Under the pieces are notes generated by a model. That model was given only the letters and a program-made list of their open reading frames with translations. It had not been told where the DNA came from and did no database searches. From an uncultured Bryobacteraceae bacterium (GTDB taxonomy: Bacteria; Acidobacteriota; Terriglobia; Bryobacterales; Bryobacteraceae): DNA of 64,000 nt. Every line of letters starts with the position of its first letter. The stretch's first letter is position 1. Below are positions 2,820 through 11,018 of the stretch, piece after piece. A program made the translations under genes and the position numbers. The stretch covers positions 1 to 64,000 of the forward strand of contig CAKZUE010000001.1 of NCBI GenBank assembly GCA_937920635.1. The letters are read 5' to 3'.

Positions 2820-2912
2820 ATCGGTGGGGATGTTCGGCGCTTTCGCTTTCGCGCCGTGCGGACGGCCTTGTGATAGATTTGAAGGGTTAGGCTCTCGCTT
2901 GAGGTAGTCCGC

Positions 2913-4316
2913 GTGCAAGTTTTTTTGCAGGGCAAGTTGCTGGGGATCGAACCGTTCATCCACAGCACACGTGGCGGTTTTGCCGCGCTGGGCGGGCGGT
3001 GCCTGTACGTTTCGCTGTTGATGGAAGCGCTGCCGCGGATGCTGCTGGACCGGCTCGGGCTGGCGCGGGAGCTGCTGGGCTCGTGCGGCGGCGGGCAGTT
3101 TCTCACGGTGTTGCCGCGGGAGAGCCTGGAGGAAGCCAACGCATTTCTGGTGGATGCCACGCGGCGGCTGGCGGCCTTTTCGGGTCACCAATTGCGGCTG
3201 GCGTGGTCGAGCACGGAGAATCTGGGCGCGTGGAGCGACATCCGCAAGCGGCTGGACGCGGGCTTCCGCCGATGGCGCGGGTTGAACGCGGTGGAGCCGG
3301 CGGGCGTGTTCGAGCCGTACGACGAAGCCGGCGACGATTCCTTCTTTGAACGCCTGTTCCTGGGGCTGCCGGGCACGGCGGCTGCGGTGTGGGACGGCGA
3401 AAGCGAAGGCATGCTGCGGGCAGAGGGCGAGCCGCACTGGCTGGCCACGCACTGCGCGCAGATGCCGGGCGGCTGGCCGGCGGGCGTGGAGGAGCTGGCG
3501 GCGAGGGCGCGGGGCCGGAAGACGTGGGGGGTGCTGCGCGGCGACGCCGACCAGTTCCAGGCGCGGCTCCAGAAGGCCGAAACGGTGGAAGAGTTCATTC
3601 AGCTTTCGGTCTTTTACAAGCAGTTCTTTTTGGGCGAAGTGCAGACGCTGTGCGGGCAGCCGGAGTTTCGGGACAAGACGACGGTGCTCTACACAGGTGG
3701 CGACGAGTTCGCCATCGCCGGCAGTTGGGACGCGCTGCCGCCGTTTGCGCAGGCGATCGAGCGGGTGTTCCGGCGTTCGAGCGAAGAGCTGCTGAAGGAT
3801 TTTCCGGGCGTCGAGGGCAAGACGCTGTCGATGGGGATCGCGCTGGCGCCCGAGCCGGAGATCGAGCCGCTGGCGGTGTACCGGGAGGCGGGGCGGCAGC
3901 TTGAGGCGGCCAAGTCCCTCGGGCGCGACTCGGTGGCGGTGTTCGGAAAGGTTCTGGACTGGAAGCAGCTCTCCGAGGCGGCCGAGCTGAAGGAATTGAT
4001 GGTGCGGATGGTGGACCGGTATCATTGCTCGCCGCAGTTTCTGGGCGAGCTCGGCGCATTTTACCGCGAGACCGACCGGGTGCTGCCGGCCAGGAGCTCG
4101 CGGCGGCTGCTGGAGACGCAGCAGCGGCCGTGGCGGCTGCACCGGCGGCTGAACCGGGTGCTGGACGGGCCCGAGCGCAACCGGGAATTCGAGAAGGCCC
4201 GGCAGGCGGTGCTGGCGGCGTTTCTGACGCGCGGCCAGGCGCAGTTGAAACTGAAGCCCTCCGGGCGGGTGGCGCTGGAGTGGGCCCGGATGACGGAAGA
4301 GGCCGAACGAGCATGA
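2913..4316 (+). CDS. csm1: Type III-A CRISPR Cas10/Csm1, HD-less
   Basis: 467 aa; palm1-like SCGGGQFLTVLP; palm2-like WGVLRGDADQFQ...; TTVLYTGGDEFAIAG; ATGA overlap with csm2-like gene and followed by csm3-5. Confidence 0.9.
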   Translation: MQVFLQGKLLGIEPFIHSTRGGFAALGGRCLYVSLLMEALPRMLLDRLGLARELLGSCGGGQFLTVLPRESLEEANAFLVDATRRLAAFSGHQLRLAWSSTENLGAWSDIRKRLDAGFRRWRGLNAVEPAGVFEPYDEAGDDSFFERLFLGLPGTAAAVWDGESEGMLRAEGEPHWLATHCAQMPGGWPAGVEELAARARGRKTWGVLRGDADQFQARLQKAETVEEFIQLSVFYKQFFLGEVQTLCGQPEFRDKTTVLYTGGDEFAIAGSWDALPPFAQAIERVFRRSSEELLKDFPGVEGKTLSMGIALAPEPEIEPLAVYREAGRQLEAAKSLGRDSVAVFGKVLDWKQLSEAAELKELMVRMVDRYHCSPQFLGELGAFYRETDRVLPARSSRRLLETQQRPWRLHRRLNRVLDGPERNREFEKARQAVLAAFLTRGQAQLKLKPSGRVALEWARMTEEAERA

Positions 4317-5035
4317 ACGAACAGGAAGCAAGACAGACCCCGCAGGAAGCCGCGGAAGGCGCCGCGGCTGCTCCCGAGACCGCGACGGCTCCGCAGGCGG
4401 CGGAAGCGGCGGCGGCAGAGCCAACCGTGTCCGAGGCGACACCGCAGGCAGAAGCAGAGGCAGCCGGACAGGCGCCTGCCGAAGAGGCCAGGCCCGCGCA
4501 GGAAGCGGCGCCAGCCGCCGCCAGGCCGCCCCGGGAAGGCCGCCCTCCACGCGGTCCCAGACAGGCGCCGCCGGAGAAGGGCCAGCGCAAGGGGCCGCCG
4601 GAGCGCAATGAGCGCAACGAGCGCAGTGACCGCGGCGAGCGGAGAGGGCCGCGCGAGGCGGGACGCCCGGAGCGCCGCGGGGGGCCTGAAGGACCGGTCG
4701 AGATCGACATCGAAAAGCTGATCGGCGACAGCCTGTATCTGGACAATCAGGCGCATGCGATTGTGGCGCGGATGCGCGACATGGATTCGGGCACGCGGAG
4801 CCAGTTGCGTCGGCTGTTCAGCGCCGTGCGCCGGGCGTGCCGGACGGAAGAGGCCGAACGGCAGCACGCGTTTGTGATGCTGCGGGCGCGGCTGGCCTAC
4901 ACGATTGCGCGCCACCAGTTGCGGAGCCTGGATCCGCTGGAAAAGCTGCTGTTGCAGGTGACGCGGAAGAACGACGCCCGTGGATACGAGCGCTTCCGCG
5001 ACCTGTTTGAAGCCATTGTCGCCTACAACGAATAA
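4313..5035 (+). CDS. csm2: Csm2 (Cas11 small subunit) with long disordered N-terminal extension
   Basis: ATG at 4313 overlaps csm1 stop; C-terminal about 112 aa helical Csm2-like (RSQLRRLFSAVRRA...YTIARHQLRSLDPLEKLL); position in operon. Confidence 0.85.
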   Translation: MNEQEARQTPQEAAEGAAAAPETATAPQAAEAAAAEPTVSEATPQAEAEAAGQAPAEEARPAQEAAPAAARPPREGRPPRGPRQAPPEKGQRKGPPERNERNERSDRGERRGPREAGRPERRGGPEGPVEIDIEKLIGDSLYLDNQAHAIVARMRDMDSGTRSQLRRLFSAVRRACRTEEAERQHAFVMLRARLAYTIARHQLRSLDPLEKLLLQVTRKNDARGYERFRDLFEAIVAYNE

Positions 5036-5059: not shown

Positions 5060-5890
5060 ATGAGTTCACACACCGCTACCACCAAGCTGGGCCTGATCGG
5101 CAAGCTGCTGCTCGACGGGGAGATGATCTGCGAGACGGGGCTCCATATCGGCGCAGGCAAGGGTTCGCTGGACCTGGGAGGCGCGGACAATCCGGTGGTG
5201 AAAGACGCCTTCGGGAGGCCTTATGTGCCGGGCAGCTCGCTGCGCGGGCGCATCCGGAGCCTGCTGGAGCAGGCGGCGGGGGTGGTGGGCGCCGAGGATC
5301 TGGTCTACCTGTCGCGGCGGCGGGGCCAGGAGGTGCGGATCCATCAGAGCGACGATCCGGGCGACGAAATCTGCCTGCTGTTCGGGCGCAATCCGGGGCG
5401 GATGGAGCGCGTGTCGGGAGAAGCGCTGGAGCCGTCGGCGGCGACGCCGGCGCGGCTGACCGTGTACGATGCGCCGCTCGAGCTGGACTCGATCACGCCG
5501 CAGATGCGCGAGAACCTGGATGACGAGCTGACGGAGGTGAAGAGCGAGAACGCGATCGACCGGGTGACGGCGCAGTCGAACGCGCGCACGCTGGAGCGGG
5601 TGCCGGCGGGGGCGCGGTTCCGCGTGCGGATGGTGCTCGACATTCTCTGCCCCGAGGACCGCGAACTGGTGGAGAAGCTGCTGGAAGGGCTGCGGCTGCT
5701 GGAAGACGACGCGCTGGGCGGAGGCGGCTCGCGCGGCAGCGGGCGGGTGCGGTTCGCCAACTGGAAGGCGAGCTGGCGCAGCCGCGGCTACTACACGGGC
5801 GCGGCGGGCGAAGAGGTGCTGGTGGAGAATGCGGCCACGACCGCAGACCTCCAGGCGGCGAGCCGCGCGTTTGCGGAGAAACTGAGCTGA
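5060..5890 (+). CDS. csm3: Csm3 (Cas7 backbone subunit)
   Basis: ETGLHIGAGKGSLDLGGADNPVVKDAFGRPYVPGSSLRGRIRSLLE...; LFGRNP; glycine-rich loop GGGGSRGSGRVRF. Confidence 0.95.
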   Translation: MSSHTATTKLGLIGKLLLDGEMICETGLHIGAGKGSLDLGGADNPVVKDAFGRPYVPGSSLRGRIRSLLEQAAGVVGAEDLVYLSRRRGQEVRIHQSDDPGDEICLLFGRNPGRMERVSGEALEPSAATPARLTVYDAPLELDSITPQMRENLDDELTEVKSENAIDRVTAQSNARTLERVPAGARFRVRMVLDILCPEDRELVEKLLEGLRLLEDDALGGGGSRGSGRVRFANWKASWRSRGYYTGAAGEEVLVENAATTADLQAASRAFAEKLS

Positions 5891-5903: not shown

Positions 5904-6923
5904 ATGAACCCTGCGCTGCTAGTCCGCATCCGGCCATCCACGCCGTGGCGCCTGGGCCCGGAGACCGGGCTGCTGTCCGAGGCTGCTGCCGTGTGGCACA
6001 GCGACGCGGTGTATTCCGCCGTGACGCTGGCGCTCGAGCAGCTCGGCTGGATGGAAGAGTGGCTGGAGGCGACGTCAGACCCGTTCCGCGAGCCGGTGGC
6101 GCGGTTCACGTCCGCGTTTCCGTGGCAGCGGAACCTGCTGTATGCGCCGCCGCCGCGCGGGCTGTGGCCGCCGGAAACAGGGGCGGCGCGGGCGCGGTGG
6201 AAGGGCGCGGAGCTGATCCCGACGCAACTGGCGGGGGCGCTGCTGCGCGGCGAGCGGTTCGATGAGCAGGCGTGGGAACTGGATGGATGGTGCGGGTGCC
6301 TGATCCCGGCCGGAAGCCGCTCGGCGACGGGGCCGTTCCGGTTTCTGCGGCGCTCGTGCGCGGCGGTGGACCGGGTGACGGGCGGCCATGCGCTGCCGTA
6401 TGTGACCGGGTGCGTGCAGTTCGCGCCGGCTTCGGGATTGTGGTGCGCAGCGCAGTTCGCCACGCAGACGGCGTATGCGGTGTGGGGGCCGCGGATCCAG
6501 GCGGCATTCCGGCTGCTGGGCGACTCCGGCGTGGGAGGGCTGCGGTCACGGGGATTCGGGCGGGCCAGAAGCGTGGAGTTTCAGGCCGGGCTGCTGGAGG
6601 ATCTGCTGTTCGGGCCGGCGGGCGCGCCGCGTCCCGGGCGGGGCTGGTGGCTGCTGTCGCTGGCGGCGCCCGCGCCCGGGGATCCGATCCGTTGGGACGA
6701 AGGCGATTATCAGATCATCCAGCGCGGCGGGCGGGTGGGAAGTCTGGCCGGGGGCGGCGCGCGCAAGCTTGTCAGCCGGATGCTGGCGGAGGGTTCGGTG
6801 GTAGTCAGTCCCCGCGCCCCGCGCGGGACCGTCACCGACGTCACGCCGGAAGGGTGCCCGCATCCGGTGGTCCGCGCCGGTTACGCCGTGGCGATTTCGA
6901 TTCCATGGCCGGGGAACGCATGA
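5904..6923 (+). CDS. csm4: Csm4 (Cas5-like RAMP)
   Basis: Order in operon; RAMP glycine-rich motif GDSGVGGLRSRGFGRARSVEF. Confidence 0.88.
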   Translation: MNPALLVRIRPSTPWRLGPETGLLSEAAAVWHSDAVYSAVTLALEQLGWMEEWLEATSDPFREPVARFTSAFPWQRNLLYAPPPRGLWPPETGAARARWKGAELIPTQLAGALLRGERFDEQAWELDGWCGCLIPAGSRSATGPFRFLRRSCAAVDRVTGGHALPYVTGCVQFAPASGLWCAAQFATQTAYAVWGPRIQAAFRLLGDSGVGGLRSRGFGRARSVEFQAGLLEDLLFGPAGAPRPGRGWWLLSLAAPAPGDPIRWDEGDYQIIQRGGRVGSLAGGGARKLVSRMLAEGSVVVSPRAPRGTVTDVTPEGCPHPVVRAGYAVAISIPWPGNA

Positions 6924-8086
6924 CTCGCTACCGCCTCACCGTACTGACCCCGCTGCTGGCCGGCGATGGCCAGAAGCTGGCGCCGATCGACTACATGGTC
7001 TGGAAGGACCAGGTGAACGTGCTCGACCAAAGGCGCATTTTCCGGCTGCTGGCGCGCGGGCCGCGGCTGGAGGCGTATCTGGCTCAGTTGCGGCGGGCGG
7101 AGAAACTGGATTTCGCCTCCTGGGGCGGCTACGCGCAGAATTACGCCAGCCGGCGGATCCCGTTCGAGCACCCGTCTTCGGCTGCTTACTACGCACGCAC
7201 GTCGGCCGAGCATCTGTTCATCCCCACGTTTGCTTCGACGAGTTCGGGCGAGATCTACGTGCCGGGCAGCGCCATCAAGGGTGCGTTGCGGCGGGCCGTG
7301 GTGCTGGGGCTGGCCGGCGAAGCGGCGTGGAGGACTCTGGGAGAGGCGCTGGCAAAGAACGACCGCGCGCCGCGGCGGCCGGGCGCGCTGCTGGAGCAGA
7401 TGCTGCTGGGCGGCCCTGGTTCGGATTGGCTGCGAGGCCTGATGGTGGCCGATTCGGAGCCGCTGGCGCCGGGCGGTTGCACGCGCGTGTATCTGCTGCG
7501 CACGGCCACTCTGGTGCAGCGCACGGGACGCACCGAGGTGGGATGGAAGATGAGTCCGCGCGGGGCGGTGGAGTTCCGGCGGCCGGGCGATTCGACACCG
7601 CATTTTGCCGAGATGGCGGCGCCGGGCACGGTTTTCGAGGGCGGCGCGGGCGCGGCGTTGATCGCGAGTCAGGAAAAGGCGCGGCGGGCGCTGCGGTGGA
7701 ACGGCGACGGCTTCGATTGGGGCAAGCTGCTGGCGGCGGCCAACCAGGCGGCCGCTCAGTTGCTGGCGCTGCACCGGCGCTATGCCGAGGCCACGGGGCT
7801 GCGGGGCGTGGCGGAGTCGATGGCGCGGCTCGAGCAGAGGCTGGACCGGATCCAGGAGGAAGGCAACCGCTGCCTGCTGTGTCTGGGCTGGGGCACGGGG
7901 TTGCTGGCGAAATCAGCGAGCCTGGAGACGGGCCGGGGCCCATATCAGGAATTGCTCCGGCTGCTGCCGGTGTACCGGGAGCCGTTGCGCACGGGACTGC
8001 CCTTCCCCAAGACGCGGCAGGTGGTTTTCCTTCAGGACCAGCCGGCCACGCTGGCGGGGTGGGCCGAACTGGAGCTGGGCGGCTGA
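6920..8086 (+). CDS. csm5: Csm5 (Cas7-like RAMP)
   Basis: ATG 6920 overlaps csm4 stop; TVLTPLLAGDGQKLAPIDYMVWKDQVNVLDQ...YVPGSAIKGALRRAVVLGL. Confidence 0.9.
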   Translation: MTRYRLTVLTPLLAGDGQKLAPIDYMVWKDQVNVLDQRRIFRLLARGPRLEAYLAQLRRAEKLDFASWGGYAQNYASRRIPFEHPSSAAYYARTSAEHLFIPTFASTSSGEIYVPGSAIKGALRRAVVLGLAGEAAWRTLGEALAKNDRAPRRPGALLEQMLLGGPGSDWLRGLMVADSEPLAPGGCTRVYLLRTATLVQRTGRTEVGWKMSPRGAVEFRRPGDSTPHFAEMAAPGTVFEGGAGAALIASQEKARRALRWNGDGFDWGKLLAAANQAAAQLLALHRRYAEATGLRGVAESMARLEQRLDRIQEEGNRCLLCLGWGTGLLAKSASLETGRGPYQELLRLLPVYREPLRTGLPFPKTRQVVFLQDQPATLAGWAELELGG

Positions 8087-8172: not shown

Positions 8173-9063
8173 ATGTACAACGCGTTTTTCGGATTTCGGG
8201 AAAATCCCTTCAATTTAAGTCCTGATCCCTCGTTTCTGTACCGCAGTCCGCAGCATGAAGAGGCGCTGGCGAACCTGATTTACGGCGTGCATGGCCGCAA
8301 GGGCTTCATCGTGCTCACCGGCGAGGTGGGAACCGGCAAGACGACGCTGCTCGAGTGCCTGCGCGACGAACTGGACGCCCACGGCATCGAGTTCGCCTAT
8401 CTGTTCAACTCGCGCATCAATCCGCAACAGTTTTTCGAGATGATCGCCTACGATCTCAACCTCCAGTGCGACCGCAAGTCGAAAACGGAGGTGCTGTTCG
8501 CGCTGAACCACCTGCTGATCGAGGAGGCCAATGCCGGCCGCACCACGGTGTTGATCGTGGACGAAGCGCACAATCTCGAATGGGACGTGCTGGAAGAGAT
8601 CCGGCTGCTCACCAACTTGGAGAACCCCAAGCTTGGCAAGCTTCTCCAGATCATTCTGTCCGGGCAGCCAGAGCTGGACCGCAAGCTGGAGGCGCCCGAA
8701 TTCCGGCAACTGAAGCAGCGGATCGTGTTGCGGTGCATGCTGTCGCCGCTGACGCTGGAGGAAACGACCGAATACATCCGCACGCGGCTGACCCGGGCGG
8801 GCATGGCCGAAATGAAAGTGTTTCCGCCCGAGGTGCTGCGGGAAATCCATCTGCGCAGCCAGGGAATTCCGCGCGTCATCAATTCGCTCTGCGACAACCT
8901 GCTGCTGACCGCTTTCGCGCTGGAGACCAAGGTCACCAGCGTCGAGATGCTGGACGAGGTGTGCCTGGACATGCGGCTCTCCTGGCCCGGCATGCCCCGC
9001 CATTTCCGGGCGAAAATCACTCAGCCGCCGGAAACCGCCTGGATCCCACCTTCGGAGAGCTGA
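8173..9063 (+). CDS. ExeA/GspA-like AAA ATPase
   Basis: MYNAFFGFRENPFNLSPDPSFLY...TGEVGTGKTTLL (Walker A)...TVLIVDEAHNL (Walker B). Confidence 0.93.
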   Translation: MYNAFFGFRENPFNLSPDPSFLYRSPQHEEALANLIYGVHGRKGFIVLTGEVGTGKTTLLECLRDELDAHGIEFAYLFNSRINPQQFFEMIAYDLNLQCDRKSKTEVLFALNHLLIEEANAGRTTVLIVDEAHNLEWDVLEEIRLLTNLENPKLGKLLQIILSGQPELDRKLEAPEFRQLKQRIVLRCMLSPLTLEETTEYIRTRLTRAGMAEMKVFPPEVLREIHLRSQGIPRVINSLCDNLLLTAFALETKVTSVEMLDEVCLDMRLSWPGMPRHFRAKITQPPETAWIPPSES

Positions 9064-9331: not shown

Positions 9332-10054
9332 TCAACGGCGCCGCCTCCAGGCGAGATACGCCAGCCCCGCGCCAAGGAGGAGCATCGTGCGGGGCTCCGG
9401 TACCTGGGCGTAATAGACATCGTCGATACCCCACAGGTCCCGTTTATCGCTTGTCGCGCCGGTAGTGATTGAGAAACTGGTGATCGCCGCGCCAGGGTTC
9501 GAGTAGCCCCAGAAAAGCGCTCCACCCGAATAGTCGTTCTTGGTGATGCTCAGCGACTGGCTCTCACCATCGTTGAATGCCACAAGGATCGGACCCGGGA
9601 AATTATCCTGCGTGTCGGTCAGGTAGAAACCGAAGGCATAGACCGGGACCGCGAAAGTGAATGTCACTGCCCCTCCTGCCGAATCATAGGCAGGGACAAC
9701 CCGCAGGTGTTGAGAGCCACTGGCCGTGACGTTAAAGCCAAGCGGATCCGGGGAGTGCTCATTAATCGCGCAGACGCCGCCGCAAAAGCTTGAGAGCAAA
9801 TTCGTCATCGTCACGTCAACGCCCGGAGCAGCCGTGAAGTTGGCGTTGAAGCCAACAGCCAGCCCCTCGAACGTGATGGGTCCTGTGGCGCCGGTAGCAG
9901 AAACAAACGCGCTCCTCGCTGCGTCCGATAGGGGCCTGTCGTCGCCCGGACCCGCCCCATTGTCTGCTCCGTAATAGATGGTTGCACCCTGTAACGAAAT
10001 GGCTGCCAACAGCCCGACTGCCAGGCTCCTTGAACAATCGGTTAGTTTTTTCAT
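9332..10054 (-). CDS. PEP-CTERM sorting-domain protein
   Basis: Signal peptide; C-terminus VPEPRTMLLLGAGLAYLAWRRRR. Confidence 0.88.
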   Translation of the reverse strand: MKKLTDCSRSLAVGLLAAISLQGATIYYGADNGAGPGDDRPLSDAARSAFVSATGATGPITFEGLAVGFNANFTAAPGVDVTMTNLLSSFCGGVCAINEHSPDPLGFNVTASGSQHLRVVPAYDSAGGAVTFTFAVPVYAFGFYLTDTQDNFPGPILVAFNDGESQSLSITKNDYSGGALFWGYSNPGAAITSFSITTGATSDKRDLWGIDDVYYAQVPEPRTMLLLGAGLAYLAWRRRR

Positions 10055-10330: not shown

Positions 10331-10655
10331 AACCGGTCACCAACGTTGTCCTCTGCCCAAGGGTGGGGTCTTTTCCATCGGTACTTTCGGGTACCGGCCC
10401 TGAAACGAGAATCAGCGGCGCGCGGCGCGGAACACGCCGGGATGGAGAAATGGCGCCCAGGCGGCCCTGTCCCCCCTTTTTAGAGCGAAGCTCCTGTCCC
10501 ATAGCGACCGCAGGGAAACGCCGGGTGAGGGGGATCGGATTTTTCCGAGCCCTAAGTGGAAGCACTGAGCCATAGCCTTAGATGTAGATCTTAGACCCGA
10601 CTAGGTGAAACACCTGCGTTTCATCGCAGTTGGATCTTTCGGAAGGTGCATTGAC

Positions 10656-11018
10656 ATGAGGACAACAATTTTCGTGGTTGCCCTTGCATGTGCTGTTTCG
10701 ATGCTTACGGCTTCTGCTGCCGTTTTGCCATCGGACAGCACGGTGGCGATCCGCCCTGGTCCGCCGCCGGATCCGCTGGGTTGCGAGCCTTGGGAGAAGT
10801 GCAGCGGAAACGGGATCCGTCCCGGTCCGCCGCCGCATCCGCTGGGTTGCGACGATCACACGGTGACAGTGTGTGTGAGCGCGATCCGTCCCGGTCCGCC
10901 GCCGGATCCGTTGGGCTTCGACCCGGCGATCCGTCCCGGTCCGCCGCCGGATCCGTTGGGCTTCGACCCCGCGATCCGTCCTGGTCCGCCGCCGGATCCG
11001 CTGGGCTTTGACCCATAG
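10656..11018 (+). CDS. Small secreted protein with five IRPGPPPxPLG repeats
   Basis: ATG 10656 after GGAAGG; N-terminus MRTTIFVVALACAVSMLTASA; five repeats, last three an exact 15-aa/45-bp tandem AIRPGPPPDPLGFDP. Confidence 0.8.
   Translation: MRTTIFVVALACAVSMLTASAAVLPSDSTVAIRPGPPPDPLGCEPWEKCSGNGIRPGPPPHPLGCDDHTVTVCVSAIRPGPPPDPLGFDPAIRPGPPPDPLGFDPAIRPGPPPDPLGFDP

Follow-up and report, generated by a model that had tools for sequence, protein, structure and literature searches.

A short, HD-less Cas10 heads a vertically inherited Csm operon that is nearly universal in sampled Bryobacteraceae

The operon and its surroundings

The window, i.e., the whole stretch of 64,000 nt analysed here, encodes a type III-A (Csm) effector operon on its forward strand. 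The first gene, cas10/csm1 (2913..4316, +), has a GTG start and encodes a protein of 467 aa consisting of palm1, palm2, and a C-terminal domain. It is followed by csm2 (4313..5035, +; 240 aa), which overlaps the cas10 end by 4 nt, csm3 (5060..5890, +), csm4 (5904..6923, +; 339 aa), and csm5 (6920..8086, +; 388 aa), which overlaps the end of csm4. The four products encoded behind cas10 all exceed their NCBIfam cut-offs (Csm2 41 bits against 30.6, Csm3 192 against 90, Csm4 109 against 55, and Csm5 51 against 38.3), and the order cas10-csm2-csm3-csm4-csm5 is constant in 33 regions of the family, as far as the contigs reach. In Csm3, the backbone and target-RNA cleavage subunit, the catalytic Asp43 (codon 5186-5188, +) lies in the motif GGADNPVVKD, aligned with GGIDNPVIKD of the solved Csm3; the residue is kept in 31/31 aligned relatives and is never eroded. 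The Pfam family Csm2_III-A matches residues 143-238 of Csm2 (2.3e-10), and the preceding low-complexity tail (4313..4699, +) is Arg/Gly-rich toward this domain. Such R/G-rich N-terminal tails, of approximately 40-160 aa, are found in Bryobacteraceae Csm2s and are absent from the control Csm2s.

An extended -10-like element, TGATAGATT (TGnTAnAnT; 2871..2879, +), precedes the cas10 start by about 42 nt. Of 32 family loci, 27 have this pattern within 90 nt 5' of cas10, against 0.4 expected from shuffling, and it sits about 40-50 nt ahead of most cas10 starts in the family. Just 5' of cas10, at 2675-2783, the dispersed motif GGTGCCAGGCGGGCCTGTCCC is present in two copies of 53 nt that lie 56 nt apart; the 26% of the window's genome that was scanned contains 10 copies of it. 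A dispersed GC-rich intergenic repeat, GAGCCGCGCGGGAGCGCCGCAGGCGCGACCAAGCGGTT, is present at 1-110, 1300-1400, and 2620-2660, and also at other contig ends (L214, L255). An Rfam scan of the first 12 kb of the window returned tRNA only.

Downstream, and linked to the operon by position, lies a gene for an AAA ATPase of the XrtA/PEP-CTERM-associated kind (8173..9063, +; TIGR03015, 293 bits, below the cut-off of 324.5). An ATPase of this type is located 3' of csm5 in 16 family loci, divergent ones included, and is the ancestral downstream neighbour of the operon. In the window it adjoins the gene of a secreted protein (9332-10054, -) with a PEP-CTERM-like end signal, VPEPRTMLLLGAGLAYLAWRRRR. The product of 10605-11018 (+) is small and secreted and contains IRPGPPPDPLGFDP repeated in tandem; further genomes of the genus have a related gene behind the operon.

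A Cas10 without the HD nuclease domain

Both palms of a type III effector Cas10 are recognised in the window protein by Pfam: Cas10-Cmr2_palm2 matches residues 206-342 (E 3e-14, 53.7 bits) and Csm1_B residues 22-87 (1.7e-6). Because the protein lacks the N-terminal half, the NCBIfam Csm1 model falls short of its cut-off (147 bits against 170), and the best stretch of the match begins at model position 479 of 753. The start residue is common to relatives across Bryobacteraceae, most of which begin with M-S-V/L-Q-I-F-L. The in-frame stretch 5' of cas10 is short, the genes upstream encode an M23 peptidase and a PD40 protein, and no HD domain is present in this upstream frame or in these genes. 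The start is thus correct, and the original prediction, which described a short Cas10 with the motifs LRGDADQF and YTGGDEFAIAG and proposed the loss of the HD nuclease unless an upstream start should encode it, holds in these respects.

The loss extends throughout the family. The HD domain is a usual, non-obligatory part of the type III effector, and in the control Csm1 loci the HD-G-K motif was found in 11/15 and CxxC pairs in 12/15. None of the Bryobacteraceae Cas10 copies examined contains the HD-G-K motif, the N-terminal domain, or the CxxC zinc ribbon. In two relatives, the single TAA and the single TAG are terminal stops and do not mark pseudogenes, and an AlphaFold2 model built from three sequences was set aside (pLDDT 40). 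Other short Cas10 frames, in L194 (G309) and L070 (G005), have CxxC pairs, lack HD-G-K, and are unrelated to the Bryobacteraceae operon.

Distribution and inheritance

The operon was found in 190/200 sampled Bryobacteraceae genomes (about 95%), most of which are probably metagenome assemblies. A profile built from 32 copies detected Cas10 in 188 of the 200, corresponding to 72/76 genera and 135/140 good-quality genomes; among the twelve negative genomes, two have Csm3 and ten do not. A protein search likewise recovered the short Cas10 from every searched genome of the window's genus and from nearly all of the family. A record titled 'Arcobacter sp.' (DYJN01000052.1, L004) encodes a Cas10 that is 91% identical and belongs to the window's genus (G003), so that its title looks wrong. 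In a phylum sample of 396 genomes, matches outside the family were limited to 12 genomes; these gave partial hits to the palm, and their Csm1 frames are mostly of full length. Beyond Bryobacteraceae, this sample has only ordinary, mostly long Csm1s.

The operon tree and the rpoB tree of 30 genomes have 14 of 27 splits in common (tip permutation: mean 0.12, maximum 2). Nine splits with good support are congruent, against a single conflicting pair, and the distances are correlated (Mantel r 0.82; 0/2000 permutations as high). A csm3-csm4-csm5 tree was left out of account, since G009 is an all-gap row in it. Distant genera agree in the genes upstream of the operon or in the ATPase downstream of it. 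Vertical inheritance of the operon as a core component of Bryobacteraceae is therefore well supported. The original prediction had taken the window's Cas10 as a single oddity, and this family-wide, vertical, CRISPR-decoupled spread was not visible to it. A search of the available literature found no description of the Bryobacteraceae Csm operon.

Conservation and selection

Within the genus, dN/dS of the operon is 0.09-0.17, and the operon is under purifying selection. Its subunits are conserved to very different extents: among about 30 family genomes, the median identity is 84.5% for the Csm2 domain and 73% for Csm3, compared with 47-51% for Cas10 (48.5%), Csm4, and Csm5, and with 81.7% for RpoB. 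Control III-A pairs whose Cas10 proteins are likewise 47-51% identical have Csm2 identities of 37-61% and Csm3 identities of 59-69%. The pattern points to the filament as the conserved part of the complex. The rate of the operon relative to rpoB is about equal in genomes with CRISPR (3.20) and without it (3.34).

CRISPR adaptation, arrays, and Cas6

Neither cas1, cas6, csm6, nor an array is linked to the operon. No CRISPR array is present in the 64,000-nt window or near any operon copy in the family, and none was found in 1.10 Mb (26%) of the window's genome by a scan that recovers known arrays. Across 37 family genomes, cas1 was found in 20, the window's genome (G000) not being one of them, and a type-III-like array pattern (TCAATC at repeat-like spacing) was matched at least twice in 14, once in eight, and not at all in 15. 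The operon is kept without cas1 or a pattern match in eight genomes that are at least 95% complete (G000, G006, G008, G015, G026, G028, G035, and G036). An array-like signal 5' of cas10 in L047 was rejected, as it is a near-perfect 70-nt tandem repeat in which distinct spacers are absent. It is likely that the operon persists without CRISPR; the absence of arrays is defined by the TCAATC pattern, cas1, and the 26% scan, so that other repeats or losses in assembly gaps are possible. The window's genome itself has, on a 5-kb contig (L068, G000:C62), part of an ordinary type III-B locus cut by the contig ends, with a Cmr2 carrying GGDD and further RAMP genes, and a missed array is therefore possible there.

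Cas6 is distributed more widely than cas1. An early impression that it is rare, obtained with TIGR01877, was dropped, since PF10040 detects it in 34/37 family genomes, most of those without cas1 included; it was not detected in G000, G015, and G035. The family Cas6 keeps its Gly-rich loop. No conserved genes lie beside the solitary cas6 in the examined family regions, and no array occurs within about 7 kb of it in 18/20 regions, as far as the contigs reach. Solitary copies were seen in G006, G008, G028, G036, G012, G031, and others (L134-L153). RNA processing is thus retained in most carriers, which fits a non-CRISPR guide as well as crRNAs supplied in trans, and the solitary Cas6 may be a second domesticated CRISPR component.

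The palm2 active site

Alignment with Thermococcus onnurineus Csm1 places Asp211 of the window protein (codon 3543..3545, +), the first palm2 acidic residue, at the KGDVD motif, and residues 262-265 (GGDE; 3696..3707, +) at GGDD. All palm2 acidic residues (D211, D264, and E265) are intact, and the suggestion that the cyclase may be active is a reasonable one for this protein. Among 34 relatives, position 211 is D in 30, E in three, and N in one, while the second motif is GGDD in 21, GGDE in seven, GGND in three, and GGHG, GSDD, or GHDQ in one each. As GGDE alternates with GGDD in the family, it is a conservative D-to-E swap at a metal position rather than drift toward a diguanylate cyclase, for which no evidence was found. 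A published list of motif variants from loci that encode known effectors includes GGDE as well (PMC11229360). The motif hence occurs in ordinary, likely active Cas10 proteins, which removes it as an oddity by the very comparison that the original prediction had proposed; that prediction is partly supported overall, and its emphasis on GGDEF is not.

Changes beyond the D/E swap affect the palm2 acidic residues of six genomes (G009, G010, G013, G017, G025, and G026). All six lack cas1, each has at most one array-pattern match, and three of them are under 90% complete. The acidic positions are intact in all 19 genomes that have both cas1 and a Cas10 copy. Erosion is found in 6/15 genomes without cas1 and with at most one pattern match, compared with 0/19 others (Fisher p 0.0037, phylogeny ignored, single matches scored as no array); when the single matches in G013 and G017 are scored as arrays, the counts become 4/11 and 2/23 (one-sided p about 0.07, hand calculation). 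This is no more than a hint that loss of the cyclase may follow the loss of CRISPR while the RNA-binding, RNA-cleaving filament stays. The Csx1-type HEPN family was absent from all 37 Bryobacteraceae genomes searched.

Possible roles of the complex

The operon is best explained as encoding a type III-A (Csm) effector complex that has been domesticated, is decoupled from CRISPR adaptation, and belongs to the vertically inherited core of Bryobacteraceae; a probability of about one half is given to this reading. Its retention where CRISPR memory is not found suggests a job beyond ordinary adaptive immunity. Csm3 and Csm2 would assemble into the usual filament along a small RNA, which the solitary core Cas6 would process in most species, and the complex would pair with cellular or foreign RNA and cut it at Csm3. 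Where palm2 is intact (GGDD or GGDE), target binding would also yield a nucleotide messenger, presumably cyclic oligoadenylate; the cyclase would usually be active and ssDNA cleavage absent. The RG-rich tail of Csm2 would contribute to RNA binding or to recruitment. Where a species has no arrays, the small RNA would need to be a non-CRISPR transcript; no guide RNA of the complex was found in this analysis, and a non-CRISPR guide is put forward as a hypothesis. The more specific picture, in which the complex is a housekeeping ribonucleoprotein guided by a small RNA that the genome encodes outside CRISPR, with a constant RNase and an optional cyclase, is accordingly tentative. A point against domestication is the window's own genome, in which no Cas6 for RNA processing was detected.

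A serious rival is an ordinary III-A effector of immunity, anciently acquired and unusually well kept, that is supplied with crRNAs in trans by arrays located elsewhere, with the solitary Cas6 as processing enzyme and cyclic oligoadenylate as signal, the seemingly CRISPR-free genomes reflecting assembly gaps or unrecognised repeats. The near-universal Cas6 and the intact palm2 of all 19 cas1-bearing genomes with a Cas10 fit such use equally, as do the 14 genomes with repeated array-pattern matches; moreover, array-less loci predominate in several type III subtypes, and crRNA recruitment in trans has been proposed for III-G (PMC12669027). This explanation is a real, if lesser, possibility; against it stand the eight nearly complete genomes without cas1 or detected arrays, in three of which Cas6 was not detected either, and the similar operon rates with and without CRISPR. 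Near-universal vertical descent and a Csm2 conserved more strongly than RpoB are also atypical for immune loci.

A guide-free complex that either binds RNA as a scaffold or acts as a regulated nucleotide cyclase would account for G000, G015, and G035, in which cas1, Cas6, and arrays were all undetected, and would agree with the non-specific RNA binding that the RG-rich tail of Csm2 suggests. It is improbable, since the invariant Csm3 Asp and the strong conservation of the filament argue for RNA cleavage or pairing, and since six genomes have eroded the cyclase and kept the remainder of the complex. The altered product proposed originally, such as c-di-GMP, is very improbable: despite the literal GGDEF string, the GGDEF family scores below its cut-offs (Pfam 22.1 bits against 23.8, E 1.4e-4; NCBIfam 15.5 against 37.4), the Cas10 palm2 match is far stronger, and most family copies have GGDD followed by F, so that GGDE is one D-to-E change.

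Comparison with known systems

CRISPR effector modules tend to be mobile and to occur patchily. It is the distribution of the operon that is unexpected, as HD loss and GGDE are already known traits. In a survey of 1113 type III loci, a recognisable HD domain was reported in 39% overall and in 65% of III-A, leaving 61% of type III and 35% of III-A Cas10 proteins without one (PMC11229360). In the available part of that paper, the HD-less proteins are surveyed as defence loci with effectors, and a family-wide core copy is not described.

The Bryobacteraceae complex resembles the Csm complexes of T. onnurineus and Streptococcus thermophilus in its five subunits, canonical order, palm1/palm2 Cas10, and Csm3 catalytic Asp, and its Csm2 and Csm4 belong to recognised III-A families. 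It differs from them in a Cas10 without HD and zinc ribbon, in the lack of a linked array, cas1, cas6, and csm6, and in the RG-rich Csm2 tail, near-universal vertical inheritance, and conservation of Csm2 above that of RpoB. If domesticated, it would clearly exemplify how class 1 CRISPR machinery can in nature assume a standing cellular role, and type III exaptation would become directly testable through the RNA bound in array-less species.

The III-A system of Mycobacterium tuberculosis is restricted to a narrow lineage and includes Csm6 and a CRISPR locus, whereas the Bryobacteraceae operon is found in more than 70 genera. The two are alike in that the mycobacterial system is conserved, shows little spacer acquisition, and has been proposed to have roles beyond immunity (PMC13334790). 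Type III systems without an adaptation module offer another parallel (PMC12669027); in those, the palm is inactivated, HD is active, and the Cas7 Asp is lost, which is the reverse of the arrangement in Bryobacteraceae. The mCpol/OptS enzyme of Panoptes is likewise a reduced Cas10-type palm enzyme outside CRISPR, but it consists of one palm domain and has no RAMP subunits (PMC12657218), whereas Bryobacteraceae retain the whole Csm complex.
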